This document shows positions 45,838-55,562 of a stretch of DNA of 57,382 nucleotides, piece by piece (the first letter of the stretch is position 1; each line of letters begins with the position of its first letter). This stretch comes from Flavobacteriales bacterium (GTDB lineage: Bacteria; Bacteroidota; Bacteroidia; Flavobacteriales_F; PHOS-HE28). The notes beneath the pieces were generated by a model that saw nothing but the letters and a program-made list of their open reading frames with translations, searched no databases and was not told the origin of the DNA. The stretch lies in assembly GCA_016788485.1 (NCBI GenBank), contig JAEUSV010000068.1, forward strand, positions 1 through 57,382, written 5' to 3'. A program made the position numbers and the translations under genes.

Positions 45838-48073
45838 CCTCTTCATCACGCTGCTGCTCCTCGCCAACGCGGCGCAGGCCCAGGTGCTGGGCCCCGAGGA
45901 GCTCGGGCCGCTCCACGCCAGGCCCATGGGCGAAGCCCCCGGTGAGCTGCGGTCCACCCTCAACGAGCTGTTCATCTACCAGTACCTGCCCCAGGAGGTG
46001 CCGGTGGAGGACGATTTCTCCACCGACCGCACGCGCCACCTCACCGCGCAGGCGGGCGATGCCGATGTCTCCCTCACCAACACGTACTACCACCTGGAAG
46101 TGGGCGGGGTGAGCACGGCGGACATGGCCTATAGCACGGACACGACCTACCGTTACACCTTCGACGTGTCCGATCCCGACACCGTGATCAAGGACACCAT
46201 CCCGAACCCCGTGGTGGTGCTCACGGTGTACGACCTTGGCGTGAACCCGCCCACATCCACCGTCGTCGACGCCTGGCTCCCCTTCAACATCATCGACACC
46301 CTCGGGGTCAGCATCACCAATGAGCAGCTCACGCCCGACCTGGTGCAGGACTCGCTTTTCGTGTACGCCGTGGCCGCCGATGCGCGCACCTACCAGCAGG
46401 GCCTCACGCAGGTGCCGCTGGTGCTGTGGGAGAGCGATCATGCCTATGTGAACCGCACCTACGCTGTGGACCCGCCCACCATCGGCATCGCCACCTTCGA
46501 CGGGCTCGACCGCACCGGCTTCCCCTACGATGTGTCCACCGCGCTGCCCTACGGCGAATGCGACCGGCTCACCTCGGTGCCCATCGACCTGCAGTACCCC
46601 GCCGGCGACAGCGTGTACCTCAGCTTCATGGTGCAGCCCCAGGGCCTCAGCGGCGACGACCAGATCCAGGTGCAGGACAGCCTGGTGCTCGACCTCTATG
46701 CCCCGAACGACGACGAGTGGGTGCAGGTGTGGAGCAGCGAGTACACCAGCGTGCAGCCCTTCCGCCAGGTGATGCTGCCCATCACCGAGACCCGCTTCCT
46801 CCAGCAGGGCTTCCGCATGCGGTGGCGCAACTACGGCACGCGCAGCGGCGCGCTCGACCAGTGGCACCTCGATTACGTGCGCCTCGGCCGCAACCGCAGC
46901 TTCGACGATACCGTGCTGGTGGACGTGGCCTTCGTGATGCCCGAGGCCTCGCTGCTCGAGACCTACACCTCGGTGCCCTTCGCCAAGTTCAGCGCATCGC
47001 CTTCCAGCTACATGGCCCAGGACGTGGAGCTCACCATGAAGAACCTCGACGTGAACGACAAGTTCATCACCTGGGGCTACTTCGCGGACATCGATGGTGA
47101 TCCGGCACCGCCGTTCGAGGAATGCGAGAACTACGGCAACAACATCAGCAACAACGCGGAGACGACCTTCACGACGACCCATCCCATCGCGGCGGGCGCT
47201 TGCGGCTTCACCTACGATCCCGCGCTCAGCACCGACGCGGCCTTCTGGCGGAACACGTTCTGGCTCGATGCCACGCCGAACGTGATCCCCTACAACGACA
47301 CCATGTCGTTCGTGCAGGAGCTCAGCAACTACTACAGCTACGATGATGGCAGTGCCGAGGCGGGCTACAGCCTGAACCAGCAGGGCGCCAAGGTGGCCGT
47401 GCGCTTCGACACGCAGGGGAGCGATTCGCTCCGGGCCGTGCGCATGTACTTCGATCCCATCTTCAGCGAGAACGATCCCACCGACGGCAACTTCCTGATC
47501 ACCGTGTGGACAAGCCTGAGCCCCGAGGTGATCCAGTTCCAGAACGTGTCCTTCACCAGCCCCACCTACCGGTACGACGGCCCCAACAAGTTCGTGGAGT
47601 TCGCGCTGGACAGCACCATCGCCGTGCAGGGCACCTTCTACGTGGGGTGGACGCAGACGAACGCCATCAAGATGAACGTGGGCTTCGACAAGAACCGGAA
47701 CAACCAGGACAAGATCTACTACAAGGTCAGCGGCCCGTTCGCGAACACCGGCTTCGAAGGCTCATTGATGCTGCGCCCGGTGATGGTGAGCGCGGTGGAC
47801 CCCTGGGCCTCGGTGCCGGAGCCTGAAGAGGAGCGTACGCTGGAAGTATTTCCGAACCCCGTGGGCGACCTGCTCAACGTGCGCCTGCAGGACGATGGTG
47901 CGGCCACCGGTGTGGAACTGCTGGACGCCATGGGCCGTGTGGTGCGCCGCGAGGGCTACCGCTCGGGGCTTGCGGTGGGGGTGAGCGATCTGGCCCCCGG
48001 ACTTTACGTGGTGCGCGTGGTCGACGCACAAGGCATGGCCCTGGGCCAGCAACGCATACTGGTACAACGCTGA
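45824..48073 (+). CDS. T9SS-secreted protein of unknown function
   Basis: The 749-residue protein has a signal peptide (RSNSLFITLLLLANAAQAQ), a large beta-rich body without a recognised catalytic site, and a C-terminal T9SS type A sorting domain (LEVFPNPVGDLLNVRL, ELLDAMGRVV, LAPGLYVVRVV, ending ILVQR). FPNPV followed by ~70 residues is the hallmark of this domain. Its start at ATG 45824 lies inside the PASTA gene, and its stop shares one base with the rluD start, so all three are translated as one operon. The frame open from 45626 is the PASTA gene's other frame and is not real. Confidence 0.85.
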   Translation: MRSNSLFITLLLLANAAQAQVLGPEELGPLHARPMGEAPGELRSTLNELFIYQYLPQEVPVEDDFSTDRTRHLTAQAGDADVSLTNTYYHLEVGGVSTADMAYSTDTTYRYTFDVSDPDTVIKDTIPNPVVVLTVYDLGVNPPTSTVVDAWLPFNIIDTLGVSITNEQLTPDLVQDSLFVYAVAADARTYQQGLTQVPLVLWESDHAYVNRTYAVDPPTIGIATFDGLDRTGFPYDVSTALPYGECDRLTSVPIDLQYPAGDSVYLSFMVQPQGLSGDDQIQVQDSLVLDLYAPNDDEWVQVWSSEYTSVQPFRQVMLPITETRFLQQGFRMRWRNYGTRSGALDQWHLDYVRLGRNRSFDDTVLVDVAFVMPEASLLETYTSVPFAKFSASPSSYMAQDVELTMKNLDVNDKFITWGYFADIDGDPAPPFEECENYGNNISNNAETTFTTTHPIAAGACGFTYDPALSTDAAFWRNTFWLDATPNVIPYNDTMSFVQELSNYYSYDDGSAEAGYSLNQQGAKVAVRFDTQGSDSLRAVRMYFDPIFSENDPTDGNFLITVWTSLSPEVIQFQNVSFTSPTYRYDGPNKFVEFALDSTIAVQGTFYVGWTQTNAIKMNVGFDKNRNNQDKIYYKVSGPFANTGFEGSLMLRPVMVSAVDPWASVPEPEEERTLEVFPNPVGDLLNVRLQDDGAATGVELLDAMGRVVRREGYRSGLAVGVSDLAPGLYVVRVVDAQGMALGQQRILVQR

Positions 48074-49128
48074 TGGTGGACGAGGACATCGAGACAGGCT
48101 CGGAGGAGCAGGAGCTCTACGAGCACCACCGCATCGTGTGCGATGCCGGGCAGACCCTGATCCGGCTGGACAAGTTCCTCTTCGACCGGCTGCCCAACAC
48201 CTCGCGGAACCGCGTGGCGGTGGCGGCGAAGGCGGGCAACGTGCTCGTGAACGGCAAGGCCGAGAAGCCGAGCTACAAGGTGAAACCGAAGGATGAGATC
48301 AGCATCGTACTGCCCTACCCGGTGCGCGAGGTGGAGCTCATCCCGGAGGACATCCCCCTGAAGGTGCTCTACGAGGACGAGCACATCCTGATCATCGACA
48401 AGCAGGCCGGCCTGGTGGTGCACCCCGGCCACGGCAACTGGACCGGCACGCTGGTGAACGCGCTGCTCTTCCACTTCGGCAAGCTGCCCTCCTCGCCCAA
48501 CCAGCCCACGCCGCGCCCCGGCCTGGTGCATCGCCTGGACAAGAACACCAGCGGCGTGATGGTGATCGGCAAGACCGAGGAGGCGCTCACGCACCTGGCC
48601 CGCCAGTTCTACGACCGCACCAACGACCGGCGCTACCAGGCGCTCGTGTGGGGCGACATGGAGGAGGCCGAGGGCACCATCGAGGGGCACATCGGTCGGT
48701 CGTACAAGGACCGCACGGTGATGCAGGTGTTCCACGACGGCGCGCACGGCAAGCCGGCCATCACGCATTGGAAGGTGGTGGAGCGCTTCACCTACGTGTG
48801 CCTGGTGGAGTGCAAGCTCGAGACCGGCCGTACGCACCAGATCCGGGCGCACATGGCGTGGAAGGGGCATCCGCTCTTCAACGATGCGGAGTACGGTGGC
48901 GACCGCGTGCTCAAGGGCACGGTCTTCACCAAGTACAAGCAGTTCGTGGAGAACGCCTTCGCCCTCTGCCAGCGCCAGGCCCTGCACGCCTGCATGCTCG
49001 AGATCGACCACCCCGCCACGGGCAAGCGCATGCGCTTCGAGAGCCCGATGCCCGCTGACATGGAGGCGTTGGTGGCCAAGTGGCGCGCGTACGCCAACGG
49101 GCCGCTCCAGGCGCAGCAGCCCGACTAG
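48073..49128 (+). CDS. rluD: 23S rRNA pseudouridine synthase (RluA/RluD family)
   Basis: The 351-residue enzyme has an N-terminal S4 RNA-binding domain (about 30-90; LIRLDKFLFDRLPNTSR) and a pseudouridine synthase domain with the family motif HRLDKNTSG, in which Asp156 is the catalytic residue. LIIDKQAGLVVHPGHGN and GRTHQIRAHMAW are further family blocks. It probably modifies uridines of helix 69 of 23S rRNA, as RluD does, but RluA-family members differ in target. The ATG shares one base with the stop of the T9SS gene. Its last codons are repeated at 50371-50386, a duplication trace. Confidence 0.92.
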   Translation: MVDEDIETGSEEQELYEHHRIVCDAGQTLIRLDKFLFDRLPNTSRNRVAVAAKAGNVLVNGKAEKPSYKVKPKDEISIVLPYPVREVELIPEDIPLKVLYEDEHILIIDKQAGLVVHPGHGNWTGTLVNALLFHFGKLPSSPNQPTPRPGLVHRLDKNTSGVMVIGKTEEALTHLARQFYDRTNDRRYQALVWGDMEEAEGTIEGHIGRSYKDRTVMQVFHDGAHGKPAITHWKVVERFTYVCLVECKLETGRTHQIRAHMAWKGHPLFNDAEYGGDRVLKGTVFTKYKQFVENAFALCQRQALHACMLEIDHPATGKRMRFESPMPADMEALVAKWRAYANGPLQAQQPD

Positions 49129-50252
49129 CCCCGCACGATGTAGGCGAAGCGGTCCTTGAGCCGCAGGAAGGGCCGTTCGAACCAGCGGTGGCTCGCCCAA
49201 GCGAGCACGAAGGTGAGCACCAGGGCCAGCCCGGGCTGCCAGATCAGCGCGCACCAAACGGTGTGGTCGAGGCCGGTGCGTTGCATCACCTGGATCGCCA
49301 CCAGCACGGCGATGGGGTGCAGGCAGTACAGGCCATAGCTGATGCGTCCGGCCCATTGCAGCACGGGGGAGTGCGTAAGGCGCAGCCGCGTGGGCATCCC
49401 CTGCACCTGGTAGAGCAGGAGCGAGGCTGCGCTCGCGGCGAACAGGGTGCGGTCCAGGATGCCCGGAATGAACCAAGGCATGAGCAGCTTGTCACGGAAA
49501 ATGTACAACACCAGGAAGGCCAGATGCAGGAGCAGGATGGTGGGACGTCCCCATCCTGCAACCCAGGAACGACCGCGTTCGCTGAACAGCGCCATGGAGG
49601 CCCATCCCCCGATCGCCATGTCGTTCACGCAGCTCAGCGTATGGCATTCATAGGCGAAGGCATCGTTCACAATGCCTCGGAACACGATGCCCATGGCGAC
49701 CACCGATGCGAAAAGCCACGGCAGCCGGCGCTCGGGTACAATGGCGATAAGAACGGGCCAGAACAGATAGAACTGCTCCTCCACCGCGATGCTCCACAGG
49801 ATGCTCACCACGGAGGAGGCCGGGAACTCGCCGCGCGCTTGGTCGAAGTTGCCCGTGAACGTGAGGTAGTGCAGCAGGTCGGCCGTTTCCGGCTCGGGCT
49901 GTCCGATGGCTGCTTTCACCGCAGGGATGAGGAAGAAGCCCACGACCAGGGTGGCGTAATACAACGGCCAGATGCGCAGCACGCGGCGCAGCCAGAAGCG
50001 AGGCACATCGATACGGCCGTTCAGGCGTTTCTCCGCTAGAAGCAGGTACGTGATGAGGAAACCACTGAGCACGAAGAAGACGTTGACACCCAGTCCGCCG
50101 TCGCCGAACAAATGAACCTTGAAGAACCTGTAGCGCGCATCCGCGATCACCGCGGGGTCCGTGGCATAGAGCGCATGGAAGAAGAAAACGGAAAGGAAAC
50201 AGAGCGTGCGCACGGCATCGAGTTCCGGGAAGGAGACGCTGCGCTTGCCCAT
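49125..50252 (-). CDS. Acyltransferase family 3 (OafA/YrhL-like), copy 1
   Basis: The 375-residue membrane protein has about ten helices and acyltransferase-3 signatures: FPELDAVRTLCFLSVFFFHAL at the start, where the conserved His sits, and GGLGVNVFFVLSGFLITYLLL near residue 50, then RFWLRRVLRIWPLYY. Members O-acylate polysaccharides or lipids at the inner membrane. The ATG at 50252 lies 5 bases after a TACCTTGC box; an in-frame TTG at 50261 would fall inside that box. It is a tandem paralog of the gene at 50383-51513, sharing the C-terminal RFAYIVRG. It overlaps the end of rluD by 4 bases. Confidence 0.88.
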   Translation of the reverse strand: MGKRSVSFPELDAVRTLCFLSVFFFHALYATDPAVIADARYRFFKVHLFGDGGLGVNVFFVLSGFLITYLLLAEKRLNGRIDVPRFWLRRVLRIWPLYYATLVVGFFLIPAVKAAIGQPEPETADLLHYLTFTGNFDQARGEFPASSVVSILWSIAVEEQFYLFWPVLIAIVPERRLPWLFASVVAMGIVFRGIVNDAFAYECHTLSCVNDMAIGGWASMALFSERGRSWVAGWGRPTILLLHLAFLVLYIFRDKLLMPWFIPGILDRTLFAASAASLLLYQVQGMPTRLRLTHSPVLQWAGRISYGLYCLHPIAVLVAIQVMQRTGLDHTVWCALIWQPGLALVLTFVLAWASHRWFERPFLRLKDRFAYIVRG

Positions 50253-50257
50253 GGGTG

Positions 50258-50265
50258 GCAAGGTA
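50258..50265 (-). promoter_or_regulatory. -7 box five bases before copy 1 of the acyltransferase
   Basis: TACCTTGC on the minus strand (50265-50258) ends 5 bases before the ATG at 50252, the same spacing as for copy 2. Confidence 0.45.
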
Positions 50266-50320
50266 GCAGGCCGGTCGCGATGCGCGCTCAGCGCTTCATC
50301 CGCACAAGGCCGCTCCTGTC

Positions 50321-50367
50321 AAAAAAATGGCACGGCCTTCACGGGCCTTCGTCAGCGGCAGGCCGTG
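50321..50367 (-). terminator. Terminator after acyltransferase copy 2
   Basis: On the minus strand CACGGCCT (50367-50360) pairs with AGGCCGTG (50338-50331), an 8-bp stem around a 21-base loop, followed after CCA by seven T residues (50327-50321). It separates the two acyltransferase copies. Confidence 0.7.
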
Positions 50368-50370
50368 GGT

Positions 50371-50391
50371 GCAGCAGCCCGACTAGCCCCG
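50371..50391. repeat. Relic of the rluD 3' end, repeated between the acyltransferase copies
   Basis: These 21 bases are identical to 49113-49133, which encode the last codons and stop of rluD plus the first bases beyond, and similarity continues with one mismatch through 50415 (49157). The relic is outside any coding frame of rluD here. It shows that a segment reaching from the rluD tail into the acyltransferase gene was copied as one block. Confidence 0.75.
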
Positions 50392-51513
50392 TACGATGTA
50401 GGCGAAGCGGTCCTTTAGCCGGAGGAAAGGACGCTCGAGGTAACGATGGCTCAGGGCCGCCAGCACGATGCTCAGCAAAAGCGCGGCCAAGGACTGGATC
50501 ACAAGTACGTGCCACACCTCATGGCCGAGCCCCACCCGTTGCATCACCTGCAGCACGGCCAGAACGGCAAGCATGTGAAGGCAGTAAAGTCCGTAGGAGA
50601 TGCGGCCAATGGCGGGTAGCGCGCCTCGGGAGGGTAGGCGTGAGCGCTGGTGGCCACCGGCGCATTGCAGTAGGATCGTTCCGGTGGCGGATACGGCGAA
50701 TATGAACGGGTACACGGCCATGCCGCCGAACATCTCCTGCGCCGGGCCGACGAAGAAGAACAGGATGAGCGTGGAGGCATACCACAGGACCGACGTCACG
50801 GGGCCCGCCCTGGAGATCAAAGCCTGCCCTTTCTCGCTGGCCAGTACATACGCGCCGAGGGCCCCCGTGGCAAGGTCACCCATACAGGAGAACGTATGCC
50901 AGAGCTGCATTGAAATGTCCGGGTTCAGGGCACGGAAGAGGATGGACGCACCGATAAGGCCGATGCAGGCCCAGGGCGACCTGCGCATGCCGGCCAGCAT
51001 GAGCAGGACGGGCCAGACCAGGTAGAACTGCTCCTCCACGGCTATGCTCCATAGCACGGAGAGCGAGGAGGAGGCAGGCTCGTAGCCGCTCGCCTTGGCC
51101 AGGTTGCTGATGAACAGCAAATAGTGCCAGGGTTCCGCCGTCTCCAACTCCCGGACGCCCGCCTGTTGCTTGATCCAGGGAACCACGACGAACCCCAATA
51201 CGACCACGGTGAAGTAGAGCGGCCAGATGCGCAGGATGCGCCTCAGCCAGAACCGCGGCACATCGATGCGGCCGTTGGTCCGCTCCTCTTGGATCAGCAG
51301 GAAGGTGATGAGGAAGCCGCTCAAGCTGAAGAACACGTTAACCCCAAGCGCGCCCGGACCGAACACCGAGGCGGATACGAAGCGGTAGACCGGGTCGGTG
51401 ATCACCGCTGGGTCAACGGAATGGAACGTGTGACATCCGAACACGGCCAGGAAGCACAGGCCGCGAAGCGCATCCAGCGCAGGAAAGCTCAATCGCTTTG
51501 CCGTTCCGATCAC
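50383..51513 (-). CDS. Acyltransferase family 3 (OafA/YrhL-like), copy 2
   Basis: The 376-residue protein resembles copy 1 over its whole length: FPALDALRGLCFLAVFGCHTF at the start, GALGVNVFFSLSGFLITFLLI, RFWLRRILRIWPLYF and the C-terminal LERPFLRLKDRFAYIVRG. The membrane helices and the conserved His near residue 28 are kept, so both copies look functional. The middle and C-terminal loop differ more, which suggests divergence in acceptor or acyl choice. It starts at a GTG, with TACCTTTC 5 bases upstream. Together with copy 1 it is a tandem duplication. Confidence 0.88.
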   Translation of the reverse strand: MIGTAKRLSFPALDALRGLCFLAVFGCHTFHSVDPAVITDPVYRFVSASVFGPGALGVNVFFSLSGFLITFLLIQEERTNGRIDVPRFWLRRILRIWPLYFTVVVLGFVVVPWIKQQAGVRELETAEPWHYLLFISNLAKASGYEPASSSLSVLWSIAVEEQFYLVWPVLLMLAGMRRSPWACIGLIGASILFRALNPDISMQLWHTFSCMGDLATGALGAYVLASEKGQALISRAGPVTSVLWYASTLILFFFVGPAQEMFGGMAVYPFIFAVSATGTILLQCAGGHQRSRLPSRGALPAIGRISYGLYCLHMLAVLAVLQVMQRVGLGHEVWHVLVIQSLAALLLSIVLAALSHRYLERPFLRLKDRFAYIVRG

Positions 51514-51518
51514 GGCTT

Positions 51519-51526
51519 GAAAGGTA
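51519..51526 (-). promoter_or_regulatory. -7 box five bases before copy 2 of the acyltransferase
   Basis: TACCTTTC on the minus strand (51526-51519) ends 5 bases before the GTG at 51513. Box and spacing match copy 1, so the promoter was probably duplicated with the gene. Confidence 0.45.
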
Positions 51527-51547: not shown

Positions 51548-52615
51548 TCACCGCCTCAACTTTCCCGAGGTCGTACGGTCGAACGCCGACACGGCCGTCA
51601 CACGCCTGGGCATCTCCCAATCCTCGAGCACGCCGGCCAGCAGGTCCATCACCTCGGGCACCACCACGGAGGCGGGCTGCTCGGTCTCCACCACGAGCCC
51701 CACGCATTCGCCCAGCTTGTCGTCGGGCCGTGCGGTGAAATAGTGCGCATAGGGCAGCACGCCCGCCGTGCGCGCCTCGAGCTGCTCGGGGAAGATCTTG
51801 CGGCCCCCGCTCAGGATCACGTTGTCGTGCCGGCCGAGCCAACGGAAGCGGCGCTCGTCGAGCAGCTCCACCACGTCGTTGGTCACATGGTCCTTGGTGC
51901 GCAGGTGCGGCGTGTGCACCACCAGGCAGCCGCGCTCGTCGAGCTCGAAAGTGATGTCGCCGATGGCGTGGGACCACTCCTGTCGGCGCGGACCGTTCAG
52001 CCGGCGCAGGGCCACGTGCGTGAGCGTTTCCGTGCTGCCATAGCCGTGGTACACCTCCACGCCGAGGTCCTGCACATCCTCTTCGAGCGCGCTGCTCACC
52101 GGACCGCCGCCGAGCAGGATGGTGCCGAATTGCCGCTCGAGCCGGGCACGGTCGTCCTGCAGGGCACGGTGCAGCTGGTTCGGCACCATGGCCGCGCACC
52201 GGAAGCGGTCGGTGGTGCGCAGGTTGTTGAGCACGCCGCCGGCCGGGTCGATCACGTGCAGGTCGAGGCCGATCACGAAGCCGCGCACGAGCATCAGCTT
52301 GCCGGCGACGAAGCTGCAGGGCAGGCAGAGCAGCGCCCGGTCGCCGTGCTTCAGGTGGAAGGTGTGCCCCGTGAGCCGCGCGCTGGAGCGCAGGTCGTTG
52401 GGGTGCAGCTTCAGCTCCTTCGGCGGACCGGTGGTGCCGCTGGTGTGCGCGGTGAGCGTGCCATCGCCGGTGCACAGTTCGCGCAGCGTGTCGCGCACCT
52501 CCACGGCCCAGCGCGCTTCGTTGTGCGATGCCACGAGCGCATCCGCCCATTGCAGGATTGCATCGCCCTCCAGCCGCTGCCCGTCGAGGGTAAGGGTGGT
52601 GAAGGGCGTGGGCAT
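51548..52615 (-). CDS. menE: O-succinylbenzoate--CoA ligase (MenE-like)
   Basis: The 355-residue AMP-forming ligase activates o-succinylbenzoate in menaquinone synthesis. It has the P-loop HTSGTTGPPKELKL near residue 55, YGSTETLTHVALR (AMP site), and the C-terminal TTSGKLRR with the catalytic lysine. It is about 100 residues shorter than E. coli MenE, as is usual for Bacteroidota MenE. The stretch between these motifs (MLVRGFVIGLDLHVIDP) is intact. It lies 6 bases after menC, and the neighbours menC and menA fix the pathway. Confidence 0.9.
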   Translation of the reverse strand: MPTPFTTLTLDGQRLEGDAILQWADALVASHNEARWAVEVRDTLRELCTGDGTLTAHTSGTTGPPKELKLHPNDLRSSARLTGHTFHLKHGDRALLCLPCSFVAGKLMLVRGFVIGLDLHVIDPAGGVLNNLRTTDRFRCAAMVPNQLHRALQDDRARLERQFGTILLGGGPVSSALEEDVQDLGVEVYHGYGSTETLTHVALRRLNGPRRQEWSHAIGDITFELDERGCLVVHTPHLRTKDHVTNDVVELLDERRFRWLGRHDNVILSGGRKIFPEQLEARTAGVLPYAHYFTARPDDKLGECVGLVVETEQPASVVVPEVMDLLAGVLEDWEMPRRVTAVSAFDRTTSGKLRR

Positions 52616-52621
52616 GGCGGC

Positions 52622-53677
52622 TCAGGATCGGAACGCGGAGAGGTCCCAATCGCCTTCAGGACGGTACCGCAGCAAGCCCTTCTCCGCCAGCAAGGGCGAG
52701 GCGATGTTGTTGGCGTACACCCGGCCCGTGCCCAGCCCCTGCGCCAGGGTCACCTGCTGCAGTGCGGTGAACTGGGCGATGGCATGTAGGCCGATGCTGC
52801 TCTCCAGCGCCGAGGTGATCCACCAGCCGATGCCACGCGCCTTGGCCAGGTCGATCCATTCCTGCGTGGCCGCCCAGCCGCCCACCAGGCTCGGCTTGAT
52901 CACGATGTATTGCGGGCGCACGTGGTCGAGCAGGTCCACCTTGGCATCGTACGTGTTCTGCCCGATGAGGTCCTCGTCGAGCCCGATGGGGACGGGGGTG
53001 TCCGCGCAGAGCTCGGCCATCACCTCGTACTGGCCGGGCGGTACGGGCTGCTCGATGCTGTGCACGTGCAGGTCGGCCAGCCGCTTCAGCACCTCGGGCG
53101 CCTGCCGTGCGGTGAAGGCGCCGTTGGCGTCCACGCGCAGGGTGATGTCGGAAGGCGCGTACTCCTTCCGCACCGCCTTCAGCAGCCCGAGCTCGTCGTC
53201 GATGCCGATGGCGCCGATCTTCATCTTCACGGTGGTGTAGCCGCCATCGAGCTGCTCGCGGATGCGCTGCTTCATGGTGGCCTTGTCGCCCATCCATACC
53301 AGGCCGTTGATGGGGATCGCCTGGCGGCCGAGCGTGAAGTCGGAGGGGAAGAGCGTCTTGGTGCCGCCTGCGGCCAGGTCCTTCAGGCATTGCTCCACGG
53401 CGAAGCGCACGCTGGGCACGTCCACCAGGTCGCCGTTCAGCCTGCGCTCCCAATCGCCGGTCTCCATGCACAGCTCTAGGAGCTTGGTGCGCACATCGGC
53501 GGGGAACTCCTTGCTGTGCCCCGGGAAGAGCGCGGCCTCGCCGATGCCCATCACCTCGGGCCGCTCGTGGTGCCAGGCGATGAGGTACCACACGGTGCGC
53601 GCGGTGATGGCGCCCTTGCTGGTGCCCAGCTCGAAGCGGGGCTCCAGGGTGCGTTCGGTCCAGCGCGCGCGCAGCAT
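52622..53677 (-). CDS. menC: O-succinylbenzoate synthase (enolase superfamily)
   Basis: The 351-residue enzyme dehydrates SHCHC to o-succinylbenzoate. Enolase-superfamily marks are TVKMKIGAIGIDDEL with the KxK pair (general acid/base), RVDANGAFT (Asp metal ligand), SIEQPVPPGQYE (Glu ligand), IGLDEDLIG (Asp ligand), and IKPSLVGGWAAT (the other lysine). All are intact. The frame is open to 53782, but MLRARWTERTLEP at 53677 starts at the menA stop (TGATG, one base shared), so that start is preferred. Confidence 0.93.
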   Translation of the reverse strand: MLRARWTERTLEPRFELGTSKGAITARTVWYLIAWHHERPEVMGIGEAALFPGHSKEFPADVRTKLLELCMETGDWERRLNGDLVDVPSVRFAVEQCLKDLAAGGTKTLFPSDFTLGRQAIPINGLVWMGDKATMKQRIREQLDGGYTTVKMKIGAIGIDDELGLLKAVRKEYAPSDITLRVDANGAFTARQAPEVLKRLADLHVHSIEQPVPPGQYEVMAELCADTPVPIGLDEDLIGQNTYDAKVDLLDHVRPQYIVIKPSLVGGWAATQEWIDLAKARGIGWWITSALESSIGLHAIAQFTALQQVTLAQGLGTGRVYANNIASPLLAEKGLLRYRPEGDWDLSAFRS

Positions 53678-54612
53678 CACGCAAGGATAAGGCCCAGCGA
53701 GAACAGGAGCGCTGTGAGGAAGGTGCCCATCGCAAGCACTTTCAGCTGGGGGTCCAGGTCGCGCGGTTCCTTGGTCGTCCACACGCGCTTCAGGTGGATG
53801 ATGAAACCCGGTGCGGAAAGCAGGAAGAGCCAGGTGGTCCAGCCGGCCTGGATGAAGAGCGTGAAGCCGATCAAGCAGAGCTCAGCGCCCACGACCAGGG
53901 TCGTGTGGTATATCCGTGCGTTCGCGCTACCCATCCGCACCACCAGCGTTCGCTTTCCGCTCGCCGCATCGTTGTGGATGTCGCGCATGTTGTTCACGTT
54001 GAGCACCCCGGAGCTGAGCAGGCCGAAGGCAATGGCAGGCGCAAGTACCAAGGGTTCGAACCGGTTGGTGTGGAGGTAATAGGTCCCGCATACGCCGACC
54101 AGTCCAAAGAAGATGAATACGCTTACATCCCCCAGGCCTGCGTATCCGTATGGGTTCTTCCCGAAGGTGTACTTCACCGCCGCGCCGATGGCCAGTAGAC
54201 CGAGCAAGAGAAAGACCATCATCTTCAGCGTCAGACCAAGCGACCCAACGATCAGGATGCTTCCGCTCGCGAAGGCCAGCACGCCGCAGATCACCATCGC
54301 ACGCTTCATGGTCGCCGGTGGGATCGCACCGCTCTGTACGGTACGTTGTGGGCCCACGCGATCGGCATTGTCCGTACCGTGAACGTGGTCGCCAAGGTCG
54401 TTGGCGAGGTTGCTGAGGATTTGGAGGAGGATGGCTGTGAGCAAAGCGAGCACGAGGACCATCGGATCACAACTGGTCGCATGACAACTGATCCAGCCCC
54501 AGTCGCTGGCCAAGGCACTCCCCACCAGGATGCTGCTCACAGCGAGCGGCAGCGTGCGCAGGCGGAAGGCGTGGAGCCAGTGCTTCAGGGAGGGGGAGGA
54601 GGGAGCGCTCAT
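53677..54612 (-). CDS. menA: 1,4-dihydroxy-2-naphthoate prenyltransferase
   Basis: The 311-residue UbiA-family membrane enzyme attaches the isoprenoid tail to dihydroxynaphthoate. It has about eight helices and two Asp-rich sites: LSNLANDLGDHVHG (first, near residue 68) and NVNNMRDIHNDAASGKRT (second). The motif GPQRTVQSGAI follows the first, as in MenA. Its ATG at 54612 (MSAPSSPSLKHWL) shares one base with the stop of the TPR gene; a GTG directly before it is also possible. The base composition is less G+C-rich than the neighbours, mainly in the helices. Confidence 0.93.
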   Translation of the reverse strand: MSAPSSPSLKHWLHAFRLRTLPLAVSSILVGSALASDWGWISCHATSCDPMVLVLALLTAILLQILSNLANDLGDHVHGTDNADRVGPQRTVQSGAIPPATMKRAMVICGVLAFASGSILIVGSLGLTLKMMVFLLLGLLAIGAAVKYTFGKNPYGYAGLGDVSVFIFFGLVGVCGTYYLHTNRFEPLVLAPAIAFGLLSSGVLNVNNMRDIHNDAASGKRTLVVRMGSANARIYHTTLVVGAELCLIGFTLFIQAGWTTWLFLLSAPGFIIHLKRVWTTKEPRDLDPQLKVLAMGTFLTALLFSLGLILA

Positions 54613-55562
54613 CACCGGCAGTAGGTGTCCTTCATCTGCTTCACCTCGGGCCCGTAGCGCATGGTGAAGCCGAGGTCGAGCGCGCGCTCATAGGCCTCGC
54701 ACGCCTTGGTGAGGTCGCCCTTCTCCTTCCACACATGCCCCAGGTTGCGGAACGCGTAGGAGTTGCTCGGGTCGAGCTGGATGGAGCGCTGCACGAGGGC
54801 AAGCGCGGCATCGCTGTTGCCCGCCCGCAGCTCGGCATAGCCCAGGTTGTTCATCGCATAGGGACTGTTGGGCTCGGCCTCCAGGGCCTCGCGGTACCAG
54901 CGCACCGACGCCTTGTGTTCGTTGAGCCGGGTGTGGTGGTAGCCGAGGTTATTGAGCACGCTGCTGTTCCGGGGCTCGAGCTCATAGGCCTTCATCAGTT
55001 CTGTCAAGCCCTCTTGTGTGCGCCCAAGCTCATCGAGCGCGAGCGACCGGTTCACCAGCACACCGATGTTGGTGCTGTCGAGGGCGCGGGCCTCATCGAG
55101 CACGATGAGGGCTTCCTTCCATTGCCGCATGTGGGCATGTGCACTGGCCAGGTTCGCCATGGCCTTGACGCGTTCCGCCGTGTCACTGGAGAGCTCGACG
55201 GTACGCCGGAGGTCCGCCACCGCCTTCGAGGGCATGTTCAGCTCCATGTAGTACAGGCCGCGTTCGTTGAAGCCCGCAGGGTCGTGTGGATGCCAGGCGA
55301 TGGAAGCATCGTAGCTGGCGAGGGCTTCCACGGGCTTGCCCTGGTGCATGCCAAGGCAATCGGCCTTCAGGCGCAGGGTCAGCGCGCGCATCGCGGTATC
55401 CGCAGCGAGCTCGTCATACGCCTTGCAGGCCGCTTCGTGCCTTCCCTTCTCCTCCAGCTTGCTGATGCGCAGGACGCGCGGGTCGTTCAGCAGCAGGCTG
55501 TCCGTCTGGGCGGCGAGCGTCCCGGTACGCAACAGGGCGAGCAGCACCACCACCGACCTCAT
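54612..55562 (-). CDS. Secreted TPR-repeat protein
   Basis: The 316-residue protein has a signal peptide (RSVVVLLALLRTGTLAAQ) and about seven tetratricopeptide repeats filling residues ~30-305, such as SSVLNNLGYHHTRLNEHKAS and YAFRNLGHVWKEKGDL. TPRs form a helical scaffold for binding other proteins or peptidoglycan. There is no catalytic domain. It is co-directional with the men genes and is joined to menA by a one-base overlap. A role in menaquinone synthesis is unlikely, so it is probably a passenger in the operon. Confidence 0.85.
   Translation of the reverse strand: MRSVVVLLALLRTGTLAAQTDSLLLNDPRVLRISKLEEKGRHEAACKAYDELAADTAMRALTLRLKADCLGMHQGKPVEALASYDASIAWHPHDPAGFNERGLYYMELNMPSKAVADLRRTVELSSDTAERVKAMANLASAHAHMRQWKEALIVLDEARALDSTNIGVLVNRSLALDELGRTQEGLTELMKAYELEPRNSSVLNNLGYHHTRLNEHKASVRWYREALEAEPNSPYAMNNLGYAELRAGNSDAALALVQRSIQLDPSNSYAFRNLGHVWKEKGDLTKACEAYERALDLGFTMRYGPEVKQMKDTYCR

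Follow-up and report, generated by a model that had tools for sequence, protein, structure and literature searches.

Two acyltransferase genes stand side by side between rluD and menE in the genome of a Flavobacteriales bacterium, and a short piece of the rluD end recurs downstream of the second of them, where there is no rluD gene. The question raised by this arrangement is how the pair came about, and whether the stray piece of rluD records the event. A sequence-only reading of the locus had proposed that one block, made of the rluD tail, an acyltransferase gene and its promoter, was copied once, and that the two proteins then diverged while a terminator was inserted between the copies. We examined this proposal within a window of 57,382 nucleotides (the whole stretch of DNA that was analysed), and compared the locus with 45 genomes of the genus, which are also all those of the family and order in the collection. 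The source genome is a 3.58 Mb metagenome-assembled genome (MAG), 84% complete and held in 168 contigs, in which rluD is present once.

Layout of the locus

The rluD-like gene (positions 48073–49128, forward strand) encodes a 23S rRNA pseudouridine synthase with S4 and PseudoU_synth_2 domains, as assigned by Pfam and NCBIfam, and its product ends in WRAYANGPLQAQQPD before the stop codon. Facing it on the reverse strand are two genes of the acyltransferase-3 family (PF01757, by Pfam): AT1 (49125–50252, 375 amino acids, ATG start at 50252) and AT2 (50383–51513, 376 amino acids, GTG start at 51513). These constitute a tandem pair, with rluD on one side and a vitamin K gene on the other, the menE-like gene for o-succinylbenzoate-CoA ligase (51548–52615, reverse strand; Pfam and NCBIfam), which is the right-hand neighbour of AT2. 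rluD and AT1 are convergent, and their stops overlap in the four bases CTAG (49125–49128), which provide a TAG stop on each strand. Further along the window, the open reading frames of menC and menA (52622–54615) overlap on the same strand by about 100 bases as listed, which suggests a later start codon for menC.

Each acyltransferase gene is preceded on the reverse strand by a TACCTT box, located at 50260–50265 for AT1 and at 51521–51526 for AT2. The boxes themselves are real, but they lie 7 bases before the likely ATG and GTG starts rather than the 5 bases first reported, and we treat them as candidate elements only. The spacer that follows the AT1 box (50266–50341) shows no terminator in a consensus scan and folds no better than shuffled sequences (z = 0.45), and thus the terminator insertion that formed part of the proposed history finds no support in it. 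This spacer has no counterpart that we could find in the genus. It was also considered as a dispersed repeat, and this was rejected: the only sequences that it matches strongly are its own and the rluD end, and the best weaker match falls inside a transporter-like reading frame with which it aligns by composition only.

Divergence of the two acyltransferases

AT1 and AT2 align from end to end with 51% amino-acid identity, which bears out the earlier view that they are paralogous along their length, and they do share a C-terminus (LKDRFAYIVRG). Both match the PF01757 profile over their full length, with scores of 107.4 and 101 bits against a gathering cut-off of 31 (E values of 1e-29 to 1e-31). 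Their DNA sequences are 57% identical, with a synonymous divergence (dS) of 1.34 and identity at 41 of 107 fourfold-degenerate sites (38%). A recent tandem block duplication is expected to leave copies that are each other's closest relatives and have a low dS. These values are far from low, and the sister relation of AT1 and AT2 is not significant in the tree analysis described below. The two genes are thus too old and too different for a simple recent copy. Another Bacteroidota genome carries two same-strand tandem acyltransferase-3 genes of the AT1/AT2 family (L124, 5001–7348).

An exact repeat and a near-identical 3′ island

The 21-base sequence GCAGCAGCCCGACTAGCCCCG at 49113–49133 recurs exactly at 50371–50391, as had been reported. 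Its 16-base core occurs at only these two sites in the 3.58 Mb genome when up to one mismatch is allowed, and a reversed control gives none. The repeat straddles the overlapping rluD and AT1 stops, such that 9 of its 21 bases fall within the acyltransferase frame and 12 lie beyond the acyltransferase stop. The bases outside the acyltransferase frames (49113–49124 and 50371–50382) are identical at all 12 positions. In the sole relevant register, and given the fourfold-site identity of 41/107 between AT1 and AT2, a 12/12 match has a probability of roughly 1e-5, and therefore these shared bases are not due to chance.

The repeat is part of a longer island of near-identity. Copy 1 (49113–49169) covers the 12 bases inside rluD and the last 45 bases of AT1, and copy 2 (50371–50427) covers the corresponding 12 bases downstream of AT2 and the last 45 bases of that gene. 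The two agree in 54 of 57 columns, compared with 57% DNA identity across the whole acyltransferase genes, and none of 5,000 shuffles reaches this value. Near the C-termini of the proteins, 10 of 12 codons are identical in the best window, and identical codons for the last residues can be attributed in part to protein conservation and codon bias. A value of 40/45 is reached in another conserved stretch. The 12 non-coding bases in copy 2 have no selective reason for identity, however, and decay alone fails to explain the island.

The similarity between the copies runs on past their coding ends, as a tandem block duplication would require. Past the 12 exact bases, the next 33 match at 17 positions (p of about 0.006 when compared with every other place in the window). 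The 45 bases after these match at 15, which is the chance level.

A probable relic of an rluD end

Read in the rluD frame on the forward strand, positions 50342–50386 give RAFVSGRPWVQQPD followed by a stop, with the last 15 bases and the stop partly overlapping the AT2 stop. The relic is probably about 45 bases in length, and thus longer than the 21-base repeat through which it was first noticed. Compared with a protein profile of the rluD tails of the genus, the relic in this frame scores with p = 0.0013 per position, and its eight codons RAFVSGRP resemble 37 such tails with p of about 2e-4 (roughly 2 in 10,000 places in the window). These tests and the 17/33 match overlap and are not independent, and they concern a short relic, scored in a single frame and register that we chose. 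When the spacer is aligned locally with rluD ends over its whole length, the result does not exceed that of shuffled sequences (p = 0.22 and 0.6), and for this reason we claim no more than the last 45 bases as relic.

The relic retains a codon (within GRP) that is missing from the current rluD tails of both this genome and its closest relative. It matches an ordinary tail of the genus (L031) at 18 of 24 positions and this genome's own rluD tail at 14 of 24. Together with the exact bases and the similarity beyond them, the likeness of the relic to rluD tails of the genus upholds the claim that the unit that was copied or transferred included an rluD end.

The site in related genomes

In the closest relative by rluD (G031; rluD 86–90% identical, menE 79%), only 7 bases separate rluD from menE, and the rluD product ends in WRAYANGPAMANMPEPDEPEV, which differs from that of this genome after ANGP. 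The G031 genome is a 69% complete MAG in which no acyltransferase match was found at E ≤ 1e-40, but a single contig spans the empty site. The dS between the two genomes is 0.86 for part of rluD and 0.97 for menE, both below the 1.34 that separates AT1 from AT2. If the copy had been made within this lineage alone, the two copies should be younger than the split from G031, whereas the observed dS is greater.

A second genome of the genus (G018) carries a single acyltransferase that is convergent with rluD and 47–48% identical to AT1 and AT2, roughly as distant from either as the two are from each other. This gene lies 9 bases from rluD with no overlap, the G018 rluD lacks the QQPD tail, and the genes beyond are different. 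AT1, AT2 and the G018 gene form one clade with full support (100/100), and this clade occurs in only 2 of the 45 genus genomes, this one and G018, in both cases beside rluD. A further 80 homologues taken from public genomes and 10 found in the class include a single one that adjoins rluD, the G018 record. A first tree grouped AT2 with the G018 gene (98/91). We dropped this grouping, since removal of long branches and of the 3′ tract reduces its support to 84/70, with p-AU = 0.28 for the alternative. The three genes are therefore best described as a three-way split whose order is not significant, and because of this the trees do not support a copy made within this lineage alone.

The junction at the rluD end varies within the genus. 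Its C-terminal tail varies strongly in length and sequence after a conserved WR-x-Y (L035, 6318–6345, is included in this pattern), and the tails of this genome and G031 have in common a one-codon shortening (YANGP versus YTxxRP). The gene beyond rluD also varies: in most genomes menE follows directly or within about 1.3 kb, and in roughly ten there are other genes. No other rluD in the genus ends in QQPD. Because the tail varies throughout the genus, the changed C-terminus in this genome is probably neutral or dispensable.

Possible histories of the pair

We favour a history, with a probability of roughly 0.5, in which the acyltransferase unit, either old or imported, carried an rluD end along with it, and the 3′ ends recombined locally at a later time. 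The unit that was copied or imported would have comprised the end of an rluD gene and a convergent acyltransferase gene overlapping the rluD stop. Copy 1 would have become joined to the working rluD, while copy 2 would still carry, as a relic, some 45 bases from the end of an rluD gene. AT1 and AT2 would then be old paralogues, or alleles from different lineages, rather than a recent copy. Later recombination, or the joining itself, is invoked because the 54/57 island contrasts with the age of the two genes. Specifically, a short gene conversion between the 3′ ends of the tandem genes may have homogenized the final 45 or so coding bases together with the 12 beyond, or the likeness may have arisen when the unit joined the resident rluD. 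Gene conversion is expected to leave a sharp block of near-identity between diverged paralogues. The 54/57 island may be such a block, but protein conservation contributes to it, and no close relative carries both genes and so offers a comparison of before and after.

An alternative, which we regard as unlikely, is that the donor and the recipient strain each had its own acyltransferase allele at the rluD end, and that the two were brought side by side by recombination anchored in rluD, the displaced rluD end becoming the relic. The greater likeness of the relic to ordinary tails of the genus than to this genome's own, the patchy presence of the clade always next to rluD and the first tree's placement of AT2 are all consistent with this idea. 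However, that placement lost significance once the 3′ tract was cut and the long branches were removed, and no strain was found that has AT1 or AT2 singly together with a QQPD tail.

The single block copy in this lineage, followed by divergence of the proteins, would account for the tandem order, the full-length homology and the rluD-tail relic, and the identity between AT1 and AT2 slightly exceeds that of either to the G018 gene. We nevertheless consider this history decidedly unlikely, because copies at a dS of about 1.3 should not keep 12 unselected bases identical (a probability of about 1e-5). The empty site in a relative less diverged than the two copies are from each other also speaks against it, as does the lack of an inserted terminator in the spacer. 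Nor need the place of copy 1 beside rluD be the original one, since the present rluD end may have arrived with the acyltransferase unit.

The direction of transfer could also be the reverse, such that the 12 bases are an acyltransferase 3′ flank and the incoming unit wrote the last codons of rluD (QQPD and the stop). The uniqueness of QQPD in the genus fits such an origin, as do the different tail and the missing acyltransferases at the G031 site. Against this, bases further upstream in the relic also resemble rluD tails, and an unusual end is weak evidence where rluD ends vary genus-wide, and we judge this direction to be quite improbable. Finally, strain variants at the rluD end might have been misjoined at the 21-base repeat in this 168-contig MAG, but this is hardly credible, as a misjoin at a repeat would exchange one gene for another without adding any, and the junction of spacer and relic would still require a real molecule.

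Meaning of the relic and comparison with known systems

The value of a leftover from an adjacent gene's end is that it marks out the copied or transferred unit and supplies an internal clock, which is here at odds with the divergence of the proteins. Setting the two clocks against each other distinguishes a simple recent duplication from a pair that is old or imported and was homogenized later. A broader and doubtful conjecture is that the rluD 3′ end serves as a recombination anchor in the genus, whereby convergent cargo such as acyltransferases moves between lineages with a piece of the rluD end, recaps the C-terminus, stacks and leaves relics that record each event. The case in hand is an ordinary tandem pair, made by gene duplication or transfer, with an instructive scar. 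Its biological consequence is limited: the pair probably encodes surface-sugar acyltransferases, and the rluD tail is altered but probably dispensable.

The function of AT1 and AT2 is assigned from family knowledge. NCBIfam offers no named subfamily for them, and a sequence search of solved structures returned no match. Acyltransferase-3 proteins such as OafB of Salmonella are described as having R-X10-H and RXXR motifs (PMC9833829). AT1 and AT2 are like OafB in matching PF01757 over their full length and in carrying these motifs at the expected places in the alignment: R15 and H26 in the first helix and RVLR in AT1, and R17 and H28 in the first helix and RILR in AT2. As members of this family, they are probably membrane enzymes with a role in the O-acylation of a sugar at the cell surface or outside the cell. 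Unlike OafB-type proteins, neither has an SGNH partner domain within its 375 or 376 residues.

For the overlapping convergent stops, we found nothing pertinent in the literature. A PE_PGRS gene pair of tubercle bacilli provides a published case of gene conversion between duplicated bacterial genes (PMC1762029). The likeness is that a short stretch of neighbouring paralogues is far more alike than the remainder, and the difference is that the stretch described here passes the stop and takes in the end of a convergent gene that is unrelated.
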